Shown here: positions 8,301-11,300 of the stretch, in pieces
How the letters are laid out: every line of letters starts with the position of its first letter
Position numbering within the stretch: position 1 is the stretch's first letter
Assembly: GCA_963921795.1 (NCBI GenBank)
Contig: OY997653.1
Span: 62,180,635-62,244,634, forward strand
Reading direction: 5' to 3'
From: Nannobrachium achirus
Lineage: Eukaryota > Chordata > Actinopteri > Myctophiformes > Myctophidae
Length of the DNA: 64,000 bases
Made by a program: the position numbers and the translations under genes
Notes under the pieces: model-generated
Databases searched by the model: none
Told to the model about the DNA's origin: nothing
What the model saw: the letters and a program-made list of their open reading frames with translations, nothing else

Positions 8301-11300
8301 CAGACAACAATAAAACATTTCACACACAACAATGCATGAGAATACAATATTATCTCGCGGGTTTCAGGTTGTTTAGCCTACTTTATTGGCCCGTCAGTCA
8401 CGTATACAGACAAGTGAATGGATGCAGGACACTACTGTACACTGTACACTACTGGCCTAACTACGTCGTTATTACGTTACAATGTATTATTTGACGCATA
8501 CCTTGGCTTTTTATTAGTTATTTGTCGTGTTGCTTCTTCTGTCTTCTAACTCTTCTTGCTGTAGTTGTAGGTTAGCATAGGCCTACAACCTTTTTACAGC
8601 CATGTCACCAGATAAACATTCGGGCAATATATCTTTTTTTATGTAATTATTCTCTTATTTTGTGTTGCAAGAAGTGTCTTATTTGCTAGTCTGTTTGTGT
8701 TTTGAAACAACATCTCCCGAGTCCCACACAATTCAACTGTCACACCTGTGTCTTTTACCTGATTAAGTGACGTGAGTCGGAGTCCCATCACCAATGTTTT
8801 AATGCCCTCTAGTGGCGAGGCACAGTAATAACCCCAAATGTATTAATAAGACCTCCACCACCAAAACATATTTTAGTTACAGTAGTTAATTAGTTAGTTA
8901 GTTAGTCAGTTAGTTAGTTATCCCAAGTAAACTATTAAAGATACATTAACTATAAAAGGTATAGTTTTGAAAAGCATTCTAAATCAAGTGGATGAAAACC
9001 ACACACCACAATACAAAAATGATAGACATTGGGAAAGCAATTTGGATAATAGGCTATACACTCCTAATTATTAATATATTAGATATTACCAGTATATAAT
9101 ATATTAGCCTACCCCAACTTTATCAGTTTGTGCTAAACCTATATAAACCACTGCAGAGTGGATATAATTGAAAACCTTTTATCTCAGATGGTACCAAGCA
9201 TATGTAAATACAGTATCTCTCCTCTCCTCTCCTCTCCTCTCCTCTCCTCTCCTCTCCTCAGAGCACCAGGCCGCCCTGCTACAGCTGCAGAGAGAATGCA
9301 AGGAGGACATGGAGAACTTACAGGTGTGTGAAGTATAAAGTCTGAGATGAGAATACACACGCTGTAGGCCTAAGTACTAAGTGTTATTTTAAATAACTAA
9401 AAATATAACAGTTATACAAGCTCACAGCTGCAAGCTTGTAGATCTGCTATTTTTGAAAAATCGTGAAAATGTGTGCACATTTTTGAATGTATATATTTCT
9501 AAAGCAGTCATTTGTAACGCAAATCCTTCTTTAGGTCCTTGGAACAAAATATTTTCAGATGTGGGTCCGTGGTCAAATACATATAATTCTAAGGGGTCCT
9601 TGACATGAAAAGTTTGATAGCCACTGATAGGGCCTTTCTGTGTGGAGTTTGCATGTTCTCCCCGTGTCTCCTAGGGTTGATACCCTCACAAAAACATGCA
9701 GTAATCCTGGTCTCAATAATGCCTCCCCCTGGCCAGCCGGGGCGCTTGATGGAGGGGAAAGGAACTGGTTGGAATAAAGTGTTCCTTCCACGCGCTACGT
9801 CCATCCTGGGGAAAATCCCCCCTGTCAGGTGAAAAGAAACAACTTGGACTCCTCATGCATAGAAGGAAGCATGAGGTCAGTCCGTTGTCTCCCCAGGCGC
9901 GGCAGAGGGAGAGCAGAGCCCAGGATTACATAGGCAATTGGCACTGGGTGAAAAAATGGGTTGCAAAATCGTGGGATAAAAATTATAGAGAAAAAAAAAG
10001 AGAGCCACTGACAGAGAAACATAGGTTTTCCAGAAAACAGGCCTAAATGTAATACTGAAAGTGTAAAAATGTTTTTCTTTTCTCAGGAGGACTATGTCCA
10101 GGAGATGTCCAGGCTGCGGGTGGAGCAAGAGGAGGTGGTCTCCTGCCTGGAGCTGGCCCTGGCCCACCTACGCTCCCAGCTGTCCCTGGGCGGAGGAGGA
10201 GGTCTCTGCCGCGGCCGGGACCTCCGCGACGCCGCCGTCTCCACGGAAGACGACCTCGTTCGCAGGGCCTTCCGCACCGTCTGCGTTCAGACGGACAAGG
10301 AGACCTTCGTCAGGGCCGAGGAGGAGGACGAGGAGGAGAAGCCGGGTGGAAGCGGTGGGAGCCCTCAGGCCCGAAAGGAGCCTCCTAAGAAGCTGGACCT
10401 GGCCTCCATCAGCCTCTGCCTGGCTCGACAGAGGGTGGAGGAGGTAGGGCATTCACCAGATATTCGAATATCAAAGTCACTATTCAACGTTGTTCACCGA
10501 AGTCGATTATTCGCTTTTTTTCTCTCTTTTTTTTTTTCTCTTTAAAAAAATATATAGTTTATAAAGCTTGGCTAGATAGGAAGTCATAAGAATGAGTTGT
10601 CAATGACCCTGGTGGATGAATTTGTTAATGCTCTATACCAGGGGTTCTCAATCCTTTTTCGGCCTTGACCCCCAAAATAAACATATTTGAACTGGGGACC
10701 CCCACCCTGACAAGCACTTGGAATTGTAGGTATTACATTTAATGTGACTCGGTTCCACAGATAAATATTGTGAAAATAGCAGATCTGCATGCTCACAACG
10801 CCTCGTGTTGCGAGGCGTTGTGAGCATGTAGATCGGGCATGTAGTTCGGCTATTTTCACAATGTTCGCCTCTAGCTTACTTAATATTTGACAGTTTGGCC
10901 AGTCCTGTCGAATATTCGACCATTCGAATGCTTTGAGGTTGAATAATTCTAATACTAATAATCACTATTGGTGAATGCCCTAGGAGGAGGTGTCTCCTGC
11001 CTCGGCGCCGTGTGTCCCAGCATCCCCTCGTCTTCGTCCTGGAGGAGCACCGCCGACCGCAGCAGAATCAGCACCAGCTCCGCCTTCTGCCCTGGCTTCC
11101 CAGAACCTTCCATCAGCCAACAACTCCACCACCACTCAGCCACCCACCGCTCCCCCTCCAGCACCTCCCTGTGTTGCCTCCTCCGTCCCAAACCTCTCAC
11201 AGTCATCTAATGGCCCTCCCCCTCCCCCTCCACCTCCTCCACCACCACCACCACCACCACCACCTCCACCCACACCAGGCTTGGCCCCCCCACCACCACC

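Follow-up and report, generated by a model that had tools for sequence, protein, structure and literature searches.

In the myctophid fish Nannobrachium achirus, a formin gene carries, in one of its coding exons, a non-autonomous hAT-like transposable element that very probably behaves as a transposon-born intron, and the family to which this element belongs has, by the same token of predicted splice sites, very probably made several introns. The stretch analyzed here, hereafter the window, comprises 64,000 nucleotides of contig OY997653.1 (assembly GCA_963921795.1, positions 62,180,635 to 62,244,634 of the forward strand) and is part of C16 in a genome of 1.66 Gb in 564 contigs. A preliminary description of the window had proposed that a hAT transposon inserted in this exon has become an intron, and a transposon acting as an intron is still the best reading, with support from the evidence below. 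On the scale of the genome, the best reading is that this vertebrate carries an introner-like family of hAT elements. Similar sequences are dispersed at unique positions in seven coding frames of unrelated genes, and their putative splice sites are composed of element and target-site duplication together. We consider it likely that this is a vertebrate hAT introner with thousands of copies, with ends pre-adapted as splice sites, and with frame-keeping introns in many genes, including the single-locus disp1.

The interrupted formin exon (10087-11423 of the window, forward strand, starting in phase 0) encodes the stretch ahead of and through the polyproline FH1 region, and is 791 nt long once the element and one duplicate are removed. 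When the downstream exons as far as about 21.97 kb are joined by eye, they yield the FH2 domain (Pfam 5.3e-68, with formins in PDB also matching), and further exon pieces at 22.66 and 28.04 kb, read by eye one by one, are open as well. A protein search of the genome places the exon at a single locus in the assembly with no second allele seen, and returns weak matches on C20 (E 0.02) and, weaker still, on C7. The paralogous exon on C20 aligns pairwise with the formin exon for 110 residues at 35% identity (E 6e-12), the alignment stopping six residues short of the insertion point. That paralogue is unsplit, staying open across the homologous place and on into the polyproline.

The element itself spans 538 bp (10445-10982, forward strand). 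Its 5′ terminus TAGGGCATTCACCA (10445-10458) and 3′ terminus TGGTGAATGCCCTA (10969-10982) are complementary at 14 of 14 positions, and it is flanked by perfect copies of the 8-bp duplication GGAGGAGG at 10437-10444 and 10983-10990, so that the inserted transposon, its inverted termini and its duplication all stand as first described. The 8-mer by itself is weak evidence, because it occurs 18 times in the window against 1.16 expected; what carries the case for an insertion is the precision of the element's boundaries, its inverted termini and the existence of further family copies at other sites. Within the element, at 10763-10864, lies a short palindromic snapback, both arms of which also occur at many places in the window; it is apparently a separate repeat that became nested within the element family.

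The predicted intron is 540 nt long (10444-10983, forward strand), with the boundaries GAG|GTAGGG and CCCTAG|GAG. The GT donor takes its G from the final base of the left duplicate, so GTAGGG begins at 10444, and the CCCTAG acceptor ends at 10983. A TACTAAT motif resembling a branch point lies at 10953-10959 (the family consensus here is TACTAAA), its branch A at 10958 being 25 nt upstream of 10983 with no AG in between. Joining 10443 to 10984 translates as ...RQRVEEEEVSPAS..., which has two Glu more than the empty site ...RQRVEEVSPAS..., whereas the unspliced reading runs into stops. The splice sites, branch motif, preserved frame and stop given in the preliminary description are thus all borne out as features of the DNA. 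Three possible acceptor AGs (+6, +3 and 0 nt) are formed by the right duplicate and the terminal base of the element; the first (CCCTAG) would add the two Glu and the later two could add one or none. We also considered an improved branch point in the formin copy, as its two CTAAT motifs are absent from the family consensus and a strict yUnAy is found at these positions in 3 of 40 other family copies. Selection is not claimed, because TACTAA is already in the consensus and one of the changes also occurs in a second family copy at 1929-2363.

The family is large, with 4916 candidates at first look and 3845 exact 14-bp termini TAGGGCATTCACCA genome-wide. Besides the formin copy, 39 near full-length copies scored among the 4916 candidates are 86-92% identical. 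The termini of hAT elements follow a TAGNG rule, and the ends of this element (TAGGGCATTCAC.../...GTGAATGCCCTA) are short inverted termini of that type; the family consensus starts with TAGGGCATTCACCA and ends with TACTAAAAATCACTATTCGTGAATGCCCTA. The target duplication is 8 bp, as in the hAT superfamily. It has at most one mismatch in 23 of 40 fetched copies (the 39 near full-length ones plus the copy at 1929-2363) and is perfect in 46 of 75 copies with a duplication ending in AGG and a partner end. Ac-like elements prefer nTnnnnAn targets, and a weak preference of this kind may exist here (T at position 2 in 12/23, A at position 7 in 13/23), although GGAGGAGG does not fit it. With two unstable stretches excluded, 15 of 397 sites in the formin copy depart from the consensus (3.8%), compared with 0.5-4.8% for the other 39. 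The second copy in the window (1929-2363, forward strand), upstream of the formin exon and without a recognisable 5′ end, is more diverged (88.7% identical) and differs from the consensus by 9.4%. The two window copies have in common a rare TACTAATAATC variant, present in 13 copies genome-wide, which would reflect either an older subfamily or local transposition.

We propose that the element jumped into the formin coding exon long ago and would now be excised from the transcript as a spliceosomal intron; both splicing and its efficiency are what we infer here. The element itself brings TAGGG (a donor minus one base), CCCTA and, some 30 nt ahead of its end, a UACUAA branch-point motif; the 8-bp duplication supplies the missing G of GT at the left and AG at the right. 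A target ending in AGG would therefore yield a ready-made, frame-keeping intron, and exonic insertions of that kind may survive. Exact restoration of the exon would be possible for NNNNNAGG duplications (NNNNNAG|GTAGGG...CCCTANNNNNAG|G). The preliminary description had supposed that any target starting and ending in G carries such sites. Its idea that the duplication makes the sites holds, but a G at both ends of the target is not required; an AGG end suffices, since the right-hand duplicate brings an AG of its own.

Duplications ending in AGG, which give AG|GT, were searched genome-wide with the pattern AGGTAGGGCATTCACC, found at 102 places. The 100 listed places comprise 18 in one tandem array, the formin copy, and 81 fetched loci, giving 82 examined. 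Excluding 7 without a partner end and 15 with more than two duplication mismatches left 60 clean copies. Exonic status was judged by eye from translations, followed by Pfam or PDB comparison of chosen peptides, with database comparison confined to these. The tandem array (L140, C18:61353668-61354321) has AGGTAGGGCATTCACC mostly every 29 bp in its 18 listed hits, and is a family terminus turned satellite-like repeat.

The preliminary description had proposed looking for family copies in other coding exons, and six besides formin are present among the 60 clean copies. All seven (formin, L064, L072, L092, L105, L109 and L120) interrupt coding frames in the sense orientation; no antisense coding insertion was seen by eye among the AGG copies. 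Homology supports six of the seven interrupted frames. In dispatched 1 (DISP1, at L120), the joined flanks align without gaps over 107 residues, 100 of them identical to the solved protein (93%), and a Pfam Patched domain bridges the join. The genome has one disp1 locus, split by the element; in a paralogue on C20 (44%) the same stretch lies within an open 1127-aa frame, and two remoter paralogues are also open. Hyaluronan synthase (L072) matches over 48 residues, the first 39 of which, join included, are gapless, and a pentraxin domain (L109) matches across 159 residues. For mS38/AURKAIP1 (L105) the match covers 116 residues with gaps near the join, plus a COX24_C match, and an mS38 paralogue is unsplit like those of disp1 and formin. 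At L092, in a gene that we take to be usherin-like, a fibronectin III domain (fn3) matches across the join. For ten more AGG peptides no match rose above the Pfam cut-off (DUF3105 at 0.021).

The signals seen in formin recur in this set. Donors at all seven exonic copies read CAG, AAG or GAG|GTAGGG, with AG|GTAGGG being built into the search pattern. TACTAA is kept in 7/7, 30-31 nt before the element end, and also in 40 of 46 non-coding AGG copies. If splicing took the first AG that occurs at the element end or beyond it, the exon would change by 0 nt at four loci, +3 at two, and +6 in formin; at L092, an AG that comes earlier, immediately behind TACTAA, was treated as too close for use. The sample was limited to exact termini and AGG duplications, and would show only a fraction of the putative introns of the family.

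Two control sets were compared with the AGG copies. The unselected set (n=47) combined the 39 best family matches with 8 of the 13 loci carrying the TACTAATAATC variant, and 30 of these have at most two duplication mismatches. By eye, none of the 47, and hence none of the 30, interrupts a coding exon. Three (L029, L031 and L054) lie near a coding exon by eye, and their Pfam match is confined to one side of the join. The second set took 20 of 59 hits whose duplication ends in AGC; on the left flank, the only side judged, 0 of 20 clearly interrupts a coding exon. One of them, L156, has a coding-like frame near a coding exon (TORC_N E 0.042, below the cut-off for TORC_N); in our reading this frame stops at a native exon end ahead of the element. 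Another, L141, has antisense frames open in GC-rich DNA and no Pfam match. Further control peptides compared with Pfam, open across or up to the join, likewise had no match (L035, L036, L144, L147, L149, L152, L160, and L047/L048, whose ends are ill defined). The difference between 7/60 AGG copies and 0/50 control copies has p = 0.012. L070/L071, L102-L104 and L130/L131 look like duplicated loci, and collapsing them gives 7/56 versus 0/50 (p = 0.0095).

These comparisons bear on whether the exonic copies merely reflect a target preference for AGGT-like, gene-rich DNA, with no tolerance through splicing. A T follows the duplication in 43/60 AGG copies versus 12/26 unselected copies, and the near-exon position of L029, L031, L054 and L156 fits such a preference. 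By eye, seven more of the 60 clean copies (L086, L091, L096, L106, L124, L135 and L138) lie exactly at native AG|GT exon ends, which seems more than chance; there the element rebuilds the donor, and two of the seven peptides have a Pfam match (ligand-gated channel, ankyrin). Genes at these exon ends presumably include KRR1, rabenosyn, KCTD3/SHKBP1 and a kainate receptor. We nevertheless regard target preference as an unlikely explanation, since none of the 50 control copies clearly interrupts a coding exon, all seven exonic insertions are sense (chance 1/128), and the proteins that are cut are conserved ones that are conserved still.

Several results weigh against intron formation in formin and by the family. 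On a position weight matrix with general vertebrate frequencies, the formin donor is strong (at 4.70 it ranks second among the 63 GTs of the exon region and falls within the top 1% of 4000 GTs from the window) and the first acceptor is weak (-1.23, 21st of 88 AGs). Eight of nine other formin acceptors scored in the window lie at 2.3 to 6.0, the ninth at -1.45. Weak acceptors are also predicted at the hyaluronan synthase (-2.18) and disp1 (-2.51) loci. The mS38 gene has a second, intact copy on C1, unsplit and 73% identical. The frame at L064, which we take to be ZNF335-like, is open for 199 residues with no database match (NCBIfam E 0.017, far below cut-off). Against the 30 unselected controls alone, the enrichment has p = 0.052. 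Frame-keeping was rejected as a sign of selection: an in-frame first AG is found in 7/7 exonic copies but also in 44/46 non-coding AGG copies, near-automatic because it is a property of the AGG duplication design.

Stronger AGs are located downstream in the formin exon at 11103 (6.52, in frame, 40 more codons lost) and 11320 (9.93, frameshift). Splicing of the element to another acceptor, such as from 10444 to 11103, or a mixture of isoforms, would benefit from this better score with the frame kept. The first AG after the branch point is generally the one used in splicing, however, and the TACTAAT 25 nt before 10983, with no intervening AG, makes this alternative unlikely. Skipping of the whole exon, which is long and interrupted, appears extremely improbable: the loss of 791 coding nt would shift the frame (791 mod 3 = 2) and take the FH1 region with it.

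The weak acceptor, and the stops met in the unspliced reading, would also suit a plain disruptive allele, null or hypomorphic, in which the element is unspliced or badly spliced and the sequenced animal has a broken formin. Age argues against this. Divergence from the consensus is 1.9-4.5% in the exonic copies, compared with a median of 3.4% in 41 other AGG copies; being as diverged as the rest, they are not fresh, though their frames are intact, and are too old for an unfixed null. From its 3.8% divergence, the formin insertion is old, probably by millions of years at an assumed rate. A neutral-decay estimate, which assumes its rates for stops and indels and serves as no more than a rough guide, leaves the formin exon intact in 2-13% of cases at 2-3.8% divergence and 36% at 1%. 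The formin and FH2 exon pieces read by eye remain open, no second formin allele is visible at the one assembly locus, and the only disp1 locus is the split one, at 93% identity to solved DISP1 around the split. We thus find a disruptive allele very unlikely. Conserved proteins that are still conserved around insertions of such age are hard to explain without splicing, which favors a transposon-born intron.

Elsewhere in the window, a 334-aa open frame at 48953-49954 has the appearance of an intronless retrocopy; across 272 of its residues Pfam recognises an ATP synthase gamma domain (1.1e-74). Between 54000 and 64000 there are exons of family C receptors (ANF_receptor, 7tm_3), probably V2R/OlfC olfactory receptors.

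Maize Ds/Ds1 elements are reportedly spliced as introns, as the titles of Dennis 1988, Wessler 1991 and Giroux 1994 have it. By those titles, they resemble the fish family in acting as introns within exons, splicing being predicted in the fish. The maize cases are said to concern individual mutant alleles in a plant, in contrast to old insertions in several genes of a vertebrate. For Ds, the excerpted text of PMC3260210 gives hAT ends C/TAGGGATGAAA...TTTCATCCCTA with 8-bp duplications, a further likeness to the fish family. Introners, as the excerpted text of PMC9860276 presents them, are likewise dispersed non-autonomous DNA elements with splice sites split between element and duplication, and some add codons (in Aureococcus, 12 bp including the 8-bp duplication). 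In the fish, by contrast, the majority of the copies examined fall outside exons, and it is only insertions with AGG-type duplications that are considered as introns, on sequence grounds. A teleost case is notothenioid slc26a2, which according to the portion of PMC12357937 available has two new introns, with intron 3 derived from NTE-1. It too involves a transposon in an exon with gt-ag within direct and inverted repeats, but has a 4-nt duplication and tgt...aca ends and is described for one gene, whereas the fish family is hAT-like with 8-bp duplications in seven coding frames of one genome. Intron gain in vertebrates is described as very rare in the accessible parts of PMC3151243 and PMC2746811. 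Among the papers listed by a literature search, with most subscription journals outside its reach, none reported this family, a vertebrate introner, or several intron births from one hAT-like family in one vertebrate genome.

The origin of new introns is an old open question. If the reading given here is true, a living fish would hold several old, readable intron births in which the donor half, branch point and acceptor half are still visible. The model in which the duplication supplies a splice site would become testable by RNA-seq and minigenes, and the family would show how selection filters the transposon insertions that survive in exons.
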